The notes under the pieces were generated by a model that did no database searches, was not told where the DNA came from, and saw only the letters and a program-made list of their open reading frames with translations. From Scatolibacter rhodanostii (GTDB taxonomy: Bacteria > Bacillota > Clostridia > Oscillospirales > Acutalibacteraceae): a stretch of DNA of 64,000 bases. Shown here piece by piece: positions 577 through 40,061 of this stretch. How positions within the stretch are numbered: the stretch's first letter is position 1; each line of letters opens with the position of its first letter. Location of the stretch: positions 62,001 to 126,000 of the forward strand of contig NZ_FZLO01000006.1 of assembly GCF_900197595.1 (NCBI RefSeq), given 5' to 3'. The position numbers and the translations under genes are program-made.

Positions 577-1686
577 ATGAAAAAGATTATTTCTATCCTG
601 TTAATTGGCGTTTTATTTGTTTCTGTGCTTGCTTCATGCAGCAGTAACACGGCCCCAGCTAAAGAATCCTCTGCTGATTCCTCAACTGGCAGCGAATCGG
701 TTGATTCTTCTAACAGCAAAACCTTGACCCTTTATACTTGGGCAGGTATGTTCTCACAAGAACTACTCGACGACTTTAAAGAAAAAACCGGTATTACCGT
801 CGACTACGCTACTTTTGATACCGATGAAACTATGCTCGCCAAATTACAGACCGAAAAGGGCGGTACTTATGACCTAATTTTAGCAGATGATTATATTCTT
901 GAGCTTGCTATTGCTGAAAATTTAGCGGCCAAATTAGATACATCAAAGCTAAGTCATTATAACAGCATTAATCCCTTTTATCAAAAGCAATTTTTTGATC
1001 CCAACGATGAATATACCGTTCCACTTGCTGCGGGTGTGCAAACCATTGTGTACAACCCTGACATTATCCAAAAAGAAATTACAGGTTATGCGGATTTATG
1101 GGATTCTTCCTTAGCCGGAAATCTTGGTGTGACTTCTAACTATCGCGTTATCAACGGTATGGCTCTTAAAGTGCTGGGTGAAAGCTATAATACCGAAGAT
1201 GTCTCTGTAATTGAAAAGGCTGGCACAAAGCTAAACGAGCTGGCACCAAATATTCGTATGATTAAAGATGACAACCTGCAAAATGACCTCATTTCAGGAG
1301 AAATTGGTGCTGCCGTTATGTACACCTCTCAAGTAACAAAGGCCAAAATGGCTCTCCCCTCTTTAAAAGTGGTCTTGCCAAAAGAAGGTATTGGCTTTGG
1401 TATTATGTCACAATTTATTCCGGTTAATGCTCCTCATCCCGATGCCGCTTATCAATTTATTGATTATCTGCTGACGCCCGAAATTGCTGCTAAATACTAT
1501 GAATTCCTCGGTTATTATTCTACCAACAAAGATGCTGATTCTCTCATTAACGAGGAATATCGAGAATTTCTTACTCTCCCTGATGAAATCACACCCGATA
1601 AAGTAGAACTCATTCAGCTTGTCTCTGCTGAAGCCACTGAAGCACATGAAAAAATTTGGACTTCTTTCAAATCTGCTACTGAATAA
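577..1686 (+). CDS. potD: Polyamine ABC transporter substrate-binding lipoprotein (PotD-like)
   Basis: Extracytoplasmic solute-binding protein that captures a polyamine or similar cation for the PotC-type permease next door. A lipoprotein signal peptide (KKIISILLIGVLFVSVLASC) ends in the lipobox LASC, so the mature protein is anchored by a lipidated Cys. A Ser-rich linker follows, then a periplasmic-binding-protein fold beginning TLTLYTWAGMF, as in PotD/PotF-type proteins. Two ATGs are adjacent (574 and 577). The AGGAGGT at 564-570 lies only 3 nt from the first and 6 nt from the second, so 577 is preferred (369 residues). Confidence 0.88.
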   Translation: MKKIISILLIGVLFVSVLASCSSNTAPAKESSADSSTGSESVDSSNSKTLTLYTWAGMFSQELLDDFKEKTGITVDYATFDTDETMLAKLQTEKGGTYDLILADDYILELAIAENLAAKLDTSKLSHYNSINPFYQKQFFDPNDEYTVPLAAGVQTIVYNPDIIQKEITGYADLWDSSLAGNLGVTSNYRVINGMALKVLGESYNTEDVSVIEKAGTKLNELAPNIRMIKDDNLQNDLISGEIGAAVMYTSQVTKAKMALPSLKVVLPKEGIGFGIMSQFIPVNAPHPDAAYQFIDYLLTPEIAAKYYEFLGYYSTNKDADSLINEEYREFLTLPDEITPDKVELIQLVSAEATEAHEKIWTSFKSATE

Positions 1687-1715
1687 TACATTGATAAAGT
1701 GAGGAGACATTCCAT

Positions 1716-2531
1716 ATGAATAAATTAACTTTCTATCCTTTTGATGATCAAGGCGCTTATGTTGATGCTTACTTACATGAACCAATGCTTGAAATGGAAA
1801 CTCATCGCGCCGAGTTTCCGGCTGTAGTCATTTGTCCGGGCGGCGGCTATATGTTTTTGTCTAAGCGCGAGGCTGACCCTGTTGCCCTACGTTATTTTGC
1901 AGCTGGATATAATGTTTTTATTCTTTACTATTCTATTCTTGATCATGCTAAAAACTTCAGACCGCTCAAAGAACTGTCTGAAACCTTTATCCGTATTCGT
2001 GAAAATGCTAAAGAATGGCATACAGATGCCAACAAAATTGCTGTCTGCGGTTTTTCTGCCGGCGGTCATTTGGCAGCCTCGTTAGGCACACTTTGGAACC
2101 ACAAAGAACTTCTAAAAAGCTATGACAACCAAGAGGGAAAGAACCGTCCCAATGCCATGATTCTTTGCTATCCTGTTATCACAGCCGACCCTGCTTTCTG
2201 CCATCAAGGTTCTATTGAAACAATCAGTGGCTGTCAGCTAGGAGAGGACGGTGCTAACTTCTTTTCTCTGGAAAATCATGTCTCTGCTGATACACCGCCA
2301 GCTTTCTTATGGCACACGGTAGAAGATGATTGTGTTCCAATTGAAAATAGTATTCGCATGGTCTCTGCCTTGCAAAAACAAAAAGTATCTTATGAATGTC
2401 ACTTTTTCCCTCACGACGGCCATGGTACTTCTGTCTGCACAGAAGAGGTTGGGTCTTACAACCCTTACAACGCCCGCTGGATGGATTTGAGTATTGAATG
2501 GCTACATAATACGTTTTCGTATCAGCCATAA
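1716..2531 (+). CDS. Alpha/beta hydrolase, acetyl-esterase-like
   Basis: A 271-residue cytoplasmic alpha/beta hydrolase with no signal peptide. It has an oxyanion-hole motif CPGGGY, the nucleophile elbow GFSAGGH (Ser about residue 112), a late Asp in VEDDCVP and a His in DGHG, giving a complete Ser-Asp-His triad. The pattern resembles small carbohydrate esterases of the acetylxylan or BD-FAE type. The natural substrate is not evident. It follows potD by 29 bp with a good GAGGAG site at 1701-1706 and may be co-transcribed, although a role in polyamine metabolism is not suggested by the sequence. Confidence 0.75.
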   Translation: MNKLTFYPFDDQGAYVDAYLHEPMLEMETHRAEFPAVVICPGGGYMFLSKREADPVALRYFAAGYNVFILYYSILDHAKNFRPLKELSETFIRIRENAKEWHTDANKIAVCGFSAGGHLAASLGTLWNHKELLKSYDNQEGKNRPNAMILCYPVITADPAFCHQGSIETISGCQLGEDGANFFSLENHVSADTPPAFLWHTVEDDCVPIENSIRMVSALQKQKVSYECHFFPHDGHGTSVCTEEVGSYNPYNARWMDLSIEWLHNTFSYQP

Positions 2532-36580: not shown

Positions 36581-37075
36581 TCACTCCACTAAAACAATCT
36601 TTCCATCAGCTTTCGTCCGATTCATGTCAATAAGACGCTGGTTTTCGCTACCTCTAAAGCGGAGTTCCAGATTTTTCTGTGCTTCTACAAATTTGCCGTC
36701 TACCAGCATATCAGTTTCATTCAATAAATCCTGTATAGCTTCACTTTTCATGGATGAAAGCTCTTCATAGGTCCAACCGCTATAAGTCACAACATCTTTG
36801 CCTATTGAATGAACAAGCTTTGCCAAATGAGTCAGTTCCTTAGGTTGGGTAAAGGGTTCCCCGCCGCTAAGCGTTATCCCCTTGAGCATAGGATTCTGTT
36901 TAAATTCTTCAAATATACTTTCTACTGAACGAAATGTACCGCCGCTAAAATCATGCGTTTGCGGATTATGACAGCCCGGGCACCCATGCGGACACCCTTG
37001 CACAAATACGGTATAACGAATTCCCGGACCATCTGTAATGGATTCTTTCACTATACCTGCCAACCGAATTTCCAT
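36581..37075 (-). CDS. nrdG: Anaerobic ribonucleotide reductase activating enzyme NrdG
   Basis: A 164-residue radical-SAM enzyme that installs the glycyl radical on the class III reductase. The cluster motif CxxxCxxC is in GCPHGCPGCHNP, followed by the SAM-binding LSGGEPFTQP. Upstream on the same strand are nrdD and a separate short gene that encodes the Gly-radical segment. The radical target of NrdG here is therefore probably a small peptide. Confidence 0.96.
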   Translation of the reverse strand: MEIRLAGIVKESITDGPGIRYTVFVQGCPHGCPGCHNPQTHDFSGGTFRSVESIFEEFKQNPMLKGITLSGGEPFTQPKELTHLAKLVHSIGKDVVTYSGWTYEELSSMKSEAIQDLLNETDMLVDGKFVEAQKNLELRFRGSENQRLIDMNRTKADGKIVLVE

Positions 37076-37248
37076 CTGCTCACCACCTTTATGGCTTTAC
37101 TTATTATGTTTCTATTTTAGCACTTTTCTCTTTAAATTGAAAGACCTAAATTCTATATTAAAATTTTTTAACATATCCTTATATTCTTTCCTTTAAATCT
37201 TGCAACAGTGAACATTAAGAAATAAAAACTAGTTAAAGTAAGAAAAAT

Positions 37249-37285
37249 CCCGGTATAAAAAAGATAAATCTCTTTCTTATCCGGG
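37249..37285 (-). terminator. Hairpin between the glycyl-radical peptide gene and nrdG
   Basis: CCCGG (37249-37253) and CCGGG (37281-37285) bracket a long, slightly bulged A/T-rich stem. ATTTTTCTT follows on the minus strand. It would reduce read-through into nrdG. Confidence 0.7.
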
Positions 37286-37298
37286 TTCCCCCTATAAT

Positions 37299-37460
37299 TC
37301 AGCCGCAACAGGAAGAGGAAAGATTATGCTTTACACGATCTCTTTCTTCTGCACGTTTGGCATTATTCCAACGATCTGTTGTTCCTACTAAATAGCCGGT
37401 AATTCTTCTGATTCTTTCAAAATCTCTGCCTTCGCCAATAATGACTTCTTTTTTATCCAT
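37299..37460 (-). CDS. Stand-alone glycyl-radical domain of class III ribonucleotide reductase
   Basis: A 53-residue protein beginning MDKKEVIIGEG. It contains DFERIRRITGYLVGTTDRWN followed by NAKRAEERDRVKH, which is the C-terminal glycyl-radical segment of ordinary NrdD (E. coli type: RVCGYLGS, then N-GK-EE-KRRVKH). The radical Gly should be residue 22. AGGAGG lies 7 nt before the ATG, and the gene is in a different frame from nrdD, so it is separately translated, not a frameshift remnant. The main nrdD product lacks this segment. It ends Ser-Ser-Ser-Cys-Cys-Gly, an unusual Cys pair that might act in electron transfer. Confidence 0.88.
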   Translation of the reverse strand: MDKKEVIIGEGRDFERIRRITGYLVGTTDRWNNAKRAEERDRVKHNLSSSCCG

Positions 37461-37501
37461 GATAAATCCTCCTATACTACTGTGTTTTGTCTCTACTTAT
37501 T

Positions 37502-39781
37502 TTATTCTATCAAGCTCGAATAATCCGGTACGTCATGATAACGAGTTTTTAGTTCCTGTAATTTTGAAAGTGGGACACCTTCTCCTGCTTTTCGTCCGCA
37601 ACGAGGGCATACTTCATCAATAATGCCGTTGTATCCGCAAACCGGGTCACGGTCTACTGGGTGATTGACAGAGCCATAGCCGATTCCTGCTTCTTTCATC
37701 GTGCGAATTACGCTTTCAAATGCATCAATGTTCTTACAAGTATCACCGTCAAGTTCCACATAGCTGATATGTCCTGCATTGGTCAACGCGTGGAAAGGTG
37801 CTTCTTTTCTGATTTTTTCATAACCGCTGATGGGATAATAAACCGGGATATGGAAAGAGTTTGTATAATATTCACGGCTTGTTACGCCTTCAATCTCACC
37901 AAATAGCTTTTTATCCATACGGACAAAACGACCACTAAGACCCTCGGCAGGTGTCGCAATTAAGGTCCAGTTTAAATGTGTTTTTTCACACATATCATCC
38001 ATGCGTTTTCTCATATATGAAATGATTTCGTAGCCAAGCTTATAGCTCTCTTCGCTCTCACCATGATGCTTACCTGTGAGCGCTTTCAGGGTTTCTGCAA
38101 GACCAATAAAACCAATACTTAGCGTTCCATGTTTCAGCACTTCAGCCACAGAATCTTCTCTCTGCAATTTTTCGGAATCTATCCAAACCCCTTGTCCCAT
38201 CAAGAAAGGATAGTTATAAGCTTTTTTGCTGGATTGAATTTTAAAGCGATGCAATAATTGTTCAATCACCAGATCAATTCTCTGATCTAAAATCTCGTAG
38301 AATTTGGCGATATCACCGCCGGCTTGTATTCCCACTCTTGGTAAGTTAATCGAAGTAAAGCTCAAATTTCCTCGTCCGCAAGTAACTGAACGGTCAGGGT
38401 CATAGGCGTTTTGCATAACACGGGTTCGGCATCCCATATACGATACTTCTGAATTGTAATCGCCCGGTTTATAGTATTGAATATTGAATGGGGCATCAAT
38501 AAAGCTAAAATTCGGGAACAATCGCTTAGCCGACACTCGCATAGACAGCTTAAACAAGTCGTAGTTTGGGTCAGTCTCATTGTAATTAATGCCCTCTTTG
38601 ACTTTAAAAATCTGTACTGGGAAGATAGGTGTCTCGCCATCTCCTAGTCCATCTTCTGTAGCCAAAAGCAAATTGCGGATGACCATTCTTCCTTGTTCGC
38701 TAGTGTCTGTACCATAGTTCAGCGAACTAAACGGCACCTGCGCGCCTGCTCTCGAGTTCATGGTATTCAGGTTGTGAATCAAAGCTTCCATTGCTTGATA
38801 GGTTGCCTTATCTGTTCCACGCCAAGCGGCTTCTTTTACATAAGAAACAGCTTTAGATGCCTCTTCTTGGGTAAAAGTGTCTGCATTGGTCAAAACAGAA
38901 ACCACTTTTTCACTGTATTCATCTACTGTGTCCAGATTTACATTCTTACTCAGTTTTTCAGCGACTTCATCTGTAATCTTCTTGCTCTCTTCAAATGAAA
39001 TCCCTTTCATAACCTGTATGTATTCTGTCAATGCCTTAAAATACTCTTTGCGATAGGTCTTATCAATTCCTTTTGCCATTGAGTAATCAAAATTGGGCAC
39101 ACTTTGTCCGCCGTGCATTTCGTTCTGATTGGCTTGAATAGCAATACAAGCTAGCGCAGCATAGCTTCGAATGTCATTCGGTTCTCTCAAATAACCGTGA
39201 CCGGTAGAAAATCCACCTTTGAAAAGCTTAATTAAATCAATTTGGCAGCAAGTTTCAGTCAATGTGTAAAAATCTTTATCATGAATATGAATATCACCGC
39301 GGGCATGGGCTTCGGCAATATGATGTGGAATTACATATTTATCATAGAAGCTTTTGGCCCCTTCAGAACCATACTTCAACATGGTTCCCATAGCCGTGTC
39401 AGCATTGATATTGGCATTTTCACGCTTTAAGTCTACATCTTCTGCATTGACAAACGTAAGCGCCGAATAAATCTTGACAAGCTCATCATCCATTTCGCGG
39501 ATTTTTTGATGCTCGGCTCTATATAGAATATAAGCTTTGGCTGTTTTAGCATATCCTGCTGCAATCAACTTTTCTTCCACAATATCTTGTATATGCTCTA
39601 CTGTAGGCAAATCTGTTTGTTTTTCTGCTTCGGCTAAAACCGCACGGGTTAAATCGTCAAGCTCTTTATCACTAAACTTTTCTGTTGCATTACGAACATT
39701 GGCTTTAAAAATAGCTGCACGAATTTTCGAGGCATCAAATGCCGCTTTCTCTCCGCTTCTTTTTATAATTTCTCCCAGCAT
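37502..39781 (-). CDS. nrdD: Anaerobic (class III) ribonucleoside-triphosphate reductase, catalytic part lacking the radical Gly
   Basis: A 759-residue protein. An N-terminal ATP-cone (about residues 3-92, KRSGEKAAFDASKIRAAIFK) gives allosteric control, followed by the ten-stranded barrel with HIHDKDFYTLTETCCQIDL and GGQSVPNFDYSMAKG. Near the end is the zinc site CGYNGIIDEVCPRCGRKAG, and the chain then stops after about 25 residues. It has no RxxGYL radical motif. That piece is encoded 42 bp downstream as a separate gene. It reduces NTPs to dNTPs anaerobically and is activated by NrdG. Confidence 0.95.
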   Translation of the reverse strand: MLGEIIKRSGEKAAFDASKIRAAIFKANVRNATEKFSDKELDDLTRAVLAEAEKQTDLPTVEHIQDIVEEKLIAAGYAKTAKAYILYRAEHQKIREMDDELVKIYSALTFVNAEDVDLKRENANINADTAMGTMLKYGSEGAKSFYDKYVIPHHIAEAHARGDIHIHDKDFYTLTETCCQIDLIKLFKGGFSTGHGYLREPNDIRSYAALACIAIQANQNEMHGGQSVPNFDYSMAKGIDKTYRKEYFKALTEYIQVMKGISFEESKKITDEVAEKLSKNVNLDTVDEYSEKVVSVLTNADTFTQEEASKAVSYVKEAAWRGTDKATYQAMEALIHNLNTMNSRAGAQVPFSSLNYGTDTSEQGRMVIRNLLLATEDGLGDGETPIFPVQIFKVKEGINYNETDPNYDLFKLSMRVSAKRLFPNFSFIDAPFNIQYYKPGDYNSEVSYMGCRTRVMQNAYDPDRSVTCGRGNLSFTSINLPRVGIQAGGDIAKFYEILDQRIDLVIEQLLHRFKIQSSKKAYNYPFLMGQGVWIDSEKLQREDSVAEVLKHGTLSIGFIGLAETLKALTGKHHGESEESYKLGYEIISYMRKRMDDMCEKTHLNWTLIATPAEGLSGRFVRMDKKLFGEIEGVTSREYYTNSFHIPVYYPISGYEKIRKEAPFHALTNAGHISYVELDGDTCKNIDAFESVIRTMKEAGIGYGSVNHPVDRDPVCGYNGIIDEVCPRCGRKAGEGVPLSKLQELKTRYHDVPDYSSLIE

Positions 39782-40024
39782 AATGGCAACCCTTTCTTCA
39801 CGGCAAATTAACCTTTTTTTCTATGTGTTTACTGTACCGCATGCTTCTCTTTTTTCTATGTTTTTAAAGAATTTAGCGCAAATTTTCGCTTATTTTCAGT
39901 CTTGGAGACAAATAAGAATAGATTAAATTTCTGCGGAGAATTTAATCTATTCCTTATACGGCGCTGATTCATTTCTTCTGTGTTTTAGATTATAACACCC
40001 CCACTGGATGATGTCAACCACCAA

Positions 40025-40061
40025 ACACTATATATAGTATAAATTTAGCTATATATTTTAG
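40025..40061 (-). promoter_or_regulatory. NrdR-box-like sites over the nrdD promoter
   Basis: ACACTATATATAGTAT (40025-40040) closely matches the NrdR consensus (acaCwATATAtwGtgt). A weaker TAGCTATATATTTTAG follows at 40046-40061. On the minus strand a TATACT -10 candidate (40041-40036) lies inside the first box. Binding by NrdR would repress nrdD when dATP is abundant. The remainder of 39782-40113 shows no gene. Confidence 0.55.

Follow-up and report, generated by a model that had tools for sequence, protein, structure and literature searches.

Many strict anaerobes make their DNA precursors with class III ribonucleotide reductase (RNR), and the locus described here raises the question of whether such an enzyme can work when its glycyl-radical segment is absent from the NrdD chain and lies in a small gene of its own. 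The locus is part of a stretch of 64,000 nucleotides of DNA (the window) from Scatolibacter rhodanostii, which we take to be an oxygen-averse gut bacterium. An earlier note on this DNA had proposed that the enzyme is split in this way, and the features that bear on the proposal are the following.

37502-39781, minus strand: open reading frame of the nrdD body, 759 residues, with ATP-cone, barrel, finger-loop Cys451 and zinc motif, without a glycyl-radical segment
37299-37460, minus strand: putative free glycyl-radical subunit, 53 residues (open reading frame and PF13597 match), predicted radical site Gly22 in RRITGYLVG
36581-37075, minus strand: nrdG, radical-SAM activase (TIGR02491, 148 bits)
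37473-37468, minus strand: Shine-Dalgarno sequence AGGAGG of the peptide gene, 7 nt 5' of its ATG
37505-37597, minus strand: 31-residue C-terminal extension of NrdD after CPRC, GRKAGEGVPLSKLQELKTRYHDVPDYSSLIE, resembling the decayed start of a radical segment, as in other split bodies
37222-37300, minus strand: region with a stable terminator-like hairpin (-25.4 kcal/mol, z -4.5), the peptide gene lying 5' and nrdG 3' of it
39989-40017, minus strand: sigma-70-type promoter TTGACA-17-TATAAT (12/12) upstream of nrdD
40027-40038, minus strand: NrdR-box-like palindrome ACTATATATAGT, adjoining the nrdD promoter on its upstream side

In a Pfam search, the two products divide a single profile between them. 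The NrdD body covers positions 1-530 of PF13597 (NRDD, 562 positions; E 1.9e-187) and the 53-residue peptide positions 531-562 (E 7.9e-9; score 35.1 bits, cut-off 26.2), which bears out the claim that the peptide is the radical segment missing from NrdD. The body also contains an ATP-cone (E 4e-20), a CPRC motif at residues 725-728 and an MGCR finger loop with Cys451, whose role as the thiyl-radical cysteine we assume; phmmer aligns its residues 2-730 with PDB 8P23 (E 5.7e-170), which we take to be the NrdD of Prevotella copri. The domains listed in the earlier note are thus present as far as the ATP-cone and the catalytic profile go, but the zinc region holds only three Cys (DPVC..CPRC), as it does in 32 of 41 fused rows, and metal binding has not been shown. 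The open reading frame coordinates, all on the minus strand, agree with the order nrdD, radical peptide, nrdG, so that the activase gene is near nrdD, and the peptide gene does have its own AGGAGG and a reading frame different from that of nrdD. It lies just downstream of nrdD as claimed, with 41 nt (37461-37501) between stop and start. The Cys-Cys-Gly end of the peptide, presented in the note as a special feature, is not conserved: at least two Cys follow the DRVKH-like motif in only 13 of 154 free tails, in varied forms, which rules out a general redox tail. The finger loop carries Met449, which presumably points to a formate-type NrdD, and a C-terminal Cys pair is therefore not expected to be required. 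PMC9669993, in the part of it available, agrees that a finger-loop Met marks the formate type.

A promoter scan of the nrdD region returned 14 promoter-like sites against 10.7 expected, only one of which matches at 12 of 12 positions. The palindrome ACTATATATAGT has no other exact match in the window, and three matches with one mismatch allowed against 0.66 expected; it is named for its likeness to the NrdR box consensus. The hairpin between the peptide gene and nrdG was not among the matches of a consensus terminator scan, but its stability suggests that the peptide is probably co-transcribed with nrdD and not with nrdG. We infer, in the absence of expression data, that nrdD and the peptide gene probably form one transcription unit and that nrdG may start separately. 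The 31-residue extension of NrdD could possibly be a docking helix, again by inference.

The proposal would have been refuted by an intact nrdD at another locus of the genome, but there is none: in this assembly (99.98% complete), the NrdD body and the peptide are the sole two PF13597 matches. Because the only NrdD lacks the radical segment, the peptide would be needed for any NrdD activity. The other RNR of this genome is a class I enzyme, NrdA plus NrdB, the latter identified by reading the neighbouring open reading frame. Class I RNR requires oxygen, so without oxygen NrdD is the only RNR found here. When the window was compared with five relatives, pN/pS lay between 0.13 and 0.17 in the NrdD body and between 0.08 and 0.20 in the peptide, with synonymous sites saturated; judged by these ratios, both are under purifying selection.

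The same arrangement recurs well beyond this genome. Nine split peptides served as queries in a scan of named genomes that gave at least 592 relatives, the best 80 of which were classified by tblastn with the window proteins as split (64), fused (8), without a body nearby (5) or at a contig edge (3). As the queries were split peptides and only the best matches were taken, 64 of 80 is not a natural frequency. The record titles of split loci among these 80 include Oscillospiraceae, Lachnospiraceae, Butyricicoccus, Anaerovibrio and Megamonas, as well as Erysipelotrichaceae/Bacilli, Fibrobacter, Desulfovibrio and Anaerobiospirillum; since many records are metagenome-assembled, lone odd titles may be contamination. 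Anaerovibrio slackiae (L130) and Massiliimalia timonensis (L114) are bearers of the split with a species name. The 64 split loci have a median gap of 36.5 nt (with chosen starts) and nrdG within 1500 nt downstream in 46 cases. A Shine-Dalgarno match of at least 4 nt precedes the tail in 61 of the 64, a figure biased upward by the choice of start codons partly on that basis.

Closer relatives were surveyed in two ways. In a search of 60 genomes (the source genome and 59 others), eight others have an adjacent body-tail pair (G001, G003, G007, G012, G032, G039, G048 and G052). An even sample of the order comprised 217 genomes including the source, 210 of them with an NRDD match; counts in it come from detailed profile searches of 39 and 62 genomes together with the 60-genome search, and hence are lower bounds. 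At least 37 genomes besides the source carry the adjacent pair (18 + 15 + 4), another (G126) has body and tail at contig ends, and in seven (six and G094) body and tail are unlinked. All 45 of these genomes have a free tail, and some encode a fused NrdD in addition. A fused NrdD together with a free tail is found in at least 17 other order-sample genomes (13; G081; G021, G025 and G043). Seven genomes considered to hold long-linker fusions (G231, G201, G131, G174, G080, G063 and G078) have a stop between the parts and were reassigned to the split class. Two second NrdDs match the profile only to position 502 (G091:C3:166646-168382 and G126:C54:2204-3946), and G116 encodes three GRD (glycyl-radical) peptides: one adjoins an NrdD body, and the other two, both short, lie at other places (L241, L242).

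We then counted the genomes that have no RNR besides the split enzyme, judged by the absence of PF02867 (class I/II large subunit), of PF17975 and of any other NrdD. Among 16 split-bearing genomes searched with profiles, 11 lack PF02867, and PF17975 occurs in one of the 16, outside those 11; six of the 11 also lack a second NrdD (G001, G012, G032, G039, G052 and G188). Twenty-five further genomes included 22 without PF02867, none of these with PF17975, and ten adjacent-pair genomes of the 22 have no other NrdD (G063, G078, G080, G106, G112, G139, G183, G219, G236 and G237). In total, the profiles find no RNR other than the split enzyme in 16 adjacent-pair genomes, which are at least 93% complete except for G001 (90%) and G012 (79%). 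The unlinked-pair genomes likewise have no PF02867, PF17975 or other NrdD (7/7), the free GRD protein being encoded elsewhere in the genome. RNRs missed by the profiles, or deoxynucleoside salvage, could weaken this argument, and the source genome itself also has NrdAB.

Fused homologues in the same family, a check that the earlier note had suggested, were found and indicate what has been lost. Of 42 fused rows, 32 carry FERIRRITGYLVG or a sequence close to it 8-11 residues after the CxxC; the others belong to different NrdD types or depart from the pattern. Within a single genus (g91), G129 and G206 are fused, G129 reading SDHGDNTRFERIRRITGYLVG, and the NrdD of G182 ends SDHGDNTRCERIPRIKV-stop (CERIPRIKV-stop). 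NrdDs of G168, G200, G149, G247 and G094 end in like manner, as does that of G224, from another genus of the same family. To judge from these sequences, the unlinked-pair genomes have lost the fused tail by truncation of NrdD. A six-frame search for segment patterns around the seven truncated NrdDs found nothing at six, and at the seventh (L218) one GYI motif on the opposite strand, unlike the radical segment. Each of the seven genomes has one NrdD, and G247 has two free GRD proteins: the usual one of about 101 residues (L229) and a 206-residue protein with a long extra N-terminus (L228; G247:C10, ORF 1566-2183, plus strand). At four of ten loci compared, two in fused (G129, G206) and two in truncated genomes (G182, G200), the free GRD gene shares a downstream neighbour family, defined by single-linkage BLAST clusters; the other six, including G168, where the contig ends, do not share it. 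The simplest reading is that the spare part came first and the built-in part then decayed, an order of events that is inferred.

Split bodies in general retain a median of 30 residues after the CxxC (86 rows, range 16-53). An anchored pattern fits 56 of the 86, with GE-G/A-V..EKLxELRKKYPxMPxFxG as the commonest letters. These extensions are more like the start of the lost segment than are their own shuffles (81 unique, mean z 2.36, 85% above 1), but the rows are related, so the likeness is a hint and not a test. A FastTree phylogeny of the bodies without tails (134 rows; L001, L002, L190, L205 and short rows not included) requires 13 changes among the three states, with 11 forced by starred branches for the fused state and likewise 11 for the split state. 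A quick IQ-TREE phylogeny of 71 rows, from which L178, L181, L188, L194, L124, L047, distant fused rows, shorter rows and near-duplicates were also omitted, needs 10 changes, with five forced for split and six for fused. The trees thus point to several origins of the change between split and fused, without fixing their number or giving a direction.

Free GRD proteins also occur on viral and mobile DNA. A scan of viral contigs with five free bacterial proteins as queries gave 202 relatives, and the best 80 were analysed: 60 loci have no body in the flank, eight lie at an edge, one has a body further on (L188), five are split (L145, L148, L152, L178 and L181) and six are fused. Counted as fused are L190 and L205, whose tail frames proved to be whole NrdDs of 640 residues; the 119-residue gene upstream in both was considered as a separate ATP-cone and dropped, as by eye it looks MazG-like. 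When 47 of these 80 viral records were searched in full, 40 contained only the free GRD gene, four a body and a tail, and three a fused gene; the records may be fragments, and some are possibly integrated elements. PHROGs annotation places the GRD gene of L134 next to an integrase and a methyltransferase and that of L164 next to tail proteins. Pfam had no match for nine of ten neighbours of phage GRD genes. The tenth, on a 251-kb viral contig (L138:5735-6757, plus strand), is RNAse_A_bac (CdiA-CT type).

The free GRD protein of phage-like contigs, where NrdD is absent, has about 95 residues and an N-terminal domain, and 51 of 135 tails, beside a body or alone, have at least 40 residues before the segment. 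The N-terminal part of the L134 protein is modelled as beta-alpha-beta-beta, with pLDDT 82-91 in blocks 2-6; the radical part reaches only 50-59, as would be expected of a part that needs its partner in order to fold. This model of the N-terminal domain had no PDB match at E <= 0.001. The longer form is also found beside NrdD bodies, in Anaerovibrio, Megamonas, Schwartzia and the five split viral loci, and is thereby linked to NrdD. Sequence motifs are strictly kept: all 160 free tails have RxxGY and 156 have RRITGYL, and all 85 split bodies have MGCR. Two further settings were recorded. The bacterial L045 (3753-4325, minus strand) encodes a 190-residue protein with the GRD segment mid-chain and an extra C-terminal stretch; a neighbouring protein ends in the same LLRHTVKK-like stretch, and the gene set includes, by eye, a VirD4-like coupling protein. 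A Crp/Fnr-like regulator, again by eye, lies near a free GRD gene at L042 (4902-5567, plus strand), where redox control is possible. The presence of free tails in many anaerobes and on phage-like DNA, sometimes far from the enzyme, suggests that the radical part is a loose, perhaps replaceable subunit. We are evenly divided over a broader proposal, in which free GRD proteins would be a family of mobile, trans-acting class III RNR subunits that travel on phages and on one or more conjugative elements, charge or repair host NrdD during infection or transfer and replace NrdD's own radical domain in many bacteria, one subunit possibly serving any NrdD body present.

These results can be set against four other explanations. 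The pair might be a broken gene, nrdD being cut short by a mutation or a sequencing error, with class I NrdAB in its place. NrdAB is indeed present, but it requires oxygen, and a broken gene does not account for the same split at 64 of the best 80 loci and in at least 37 other order-sample genomes, for purifying selection on both parts, for a Shine-Dalgarno sequence belonging to the peptide or for the 16 adjacent-pair genomes without another RNR found; we regard it as barely credible. Nor is it easy to restore a normal NrdD by stop read-through, frameshift or ligation. At some loci, body and tail do share a frame with a single stop between them, but the frame is kept at 22 of 64, the third expected by chance and no sign of recoding, and the stop codons vary (TAA, TAG, TGA). 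These two observations led us to reject read-through and frameshift; with the peptide's own Shine-Dalgarno sequence in the window and a tail on another contig or at another place in seven genomes, joining of any kind has next to no support.

A purely reparative role, in which the peptide mends oxygen-cleaved NrdD as YfiD does for pyruvate formate-lyase (PFL) and is no standing subunit, draws on the free GRD proteins beside complete fused NrdDs in at least 17 order-sample genomes. It is very improbable here, since the only NrdD of the source genome cannot act without the peptide, and the same holds in the 16 adjacent-pair and seven unlinked-pair genomes without another RNR found. The remaining alternative concerns purpose: the rate of peptide synthesis, and not repair, might set the active share of NrdD. 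The Shine-Dalgarno sequence of the peptide gene, the hairpin ahead of nrdG and the NrdR-like box upstream of nrdD are compatible with such regulation, but one unit with nrdD leaves little room for separate transcriptional control, although unlinked genomes do have that room. Without expression data, we consider it doubtful.

We conclude, with a probability of roughly 0.88, that the pair works as a class III (anaerobic) RNR of two components, both of them obligatory, in which docking, radical and activity are inferred and have not been shown. The split, its conservation across lineages, the co-occurrence of the parts, their status as the only RNR found in many genomes and the truncation in relatives are established at the level of sequence, and with fused homologues in the family, they sustain the central claim of the earlier note that the radical segment is a separate gene. 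Docking, order of activation, radical transfer, benefit for repair and order of events are inferences. In the mechanism that we propose, the NrdD body would provide the ATP-cone, nucleotide sites, barrel and thiyl-radical cysteine Cys451, and the separately translated 53-residue protein would provide the glycyl-radical loop. NrdG would generate the radical on Gly22, probably once the peptide sits in the groove that holds the C-terminus of fused enzymes. With the loop near Cys451, the radical would move from Gly22 to Cys451, and catalysis would proceed as in a normal NrdD. An AlphaFold2 model of a body-plus-tail read-through chain (14 alignment rows) left the tail unplaced, with pLDDT 37-47 in the radical loop and tail end and 66 in the ten residues before the loop, and is uninformative on docking. 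Oxygen cleaves glycyl-radical enzymes (PMC8683613, PMC4390871), and does so at the glycine (PMC12288474), as stated in the accessible portions of these papers; a likely gain, which is conjecture, is that loss would be limited to a cheap 53-residue part. The split state would have arisen several times, probably with a free GRD protein first as a spare part, followed by decay of the fused copy.

The separable 53-residue part offers a system for studying activation, dATP control and oxygen repair. The findings also point to phage-carried genes that could raise dNTP supply in anaerobic hosts, and they suggest a function for short open reading frames that match only the end of NrdD and are easily mistaken for fragments. 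A literature search, mainly at the level of listings and with subscription literature mostly outside its reach, found neither an NrdD split from a free radical subunit nor a spare part for NrdD. Split class II RNRs and fragmented phage RNR genes were known before; within that limited scope, a class III split with a free radical subunit appears to be new.

The P. copri-type NrdD has in common with the window enzyme the ATP-cone, barrel, finger loop and zinc region, but according to the available part of PMC11226230, its GRD lies at the C-terminal end of the NrdD chain itself, whereas here it is a separate gene. In the same source, this GRD is ordered when the monomer is active and mobile in the presence of dATP, and a detachable GRD thus seems a small step. 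NrdJa/NrdJb of Pseudomonas aeruginosa is likewise an RNR in two polypeptides, but of class II (PMC4520616 by its listing; PMC9669993, seen in part); the window body does not meet the class II criterion, PF02867, and belongs to PF13597. Phage RNR genes also occur in pieces (Aeh1 nrdA, phiAS4 nrdD), in connection with homing endonucleases, introns, inteins or breakage of unknown cause; unlike split NrdD, they come with no conserved free radical subunit in the portion of PMC3653736 at hand. The closest parallels are YfiD/GrcA and T4 Y06I, which are free-standing glycyl-radical proteins like the window peptide and are also phage-borne; in the accessible text of PMC8683613, only these two are validated, for PFL, and others are speculated to be possible, so our results bear on those authors' question of whether other glycyl-radical enzymes have spare parts. 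The window peptide reaches the cut-off for NRDD alone and not for PF01228 (PFL-type glycyl-radical domain). The likeness to YfiD drawn in the earlier note holds as an analogy, in that free GRD proteins do occur beside intact fused NrdDs and on phage-like contigs, but the source genome has no fused NrdD and so lacks the intact partner with its own radical segment on which a YfiD-type protein acts. The partner of YfiD/GrcA is PFL; that of the window peptide would be NrdD, for which it appears to be not a rescue part but, in split genomes, an obligatory one.
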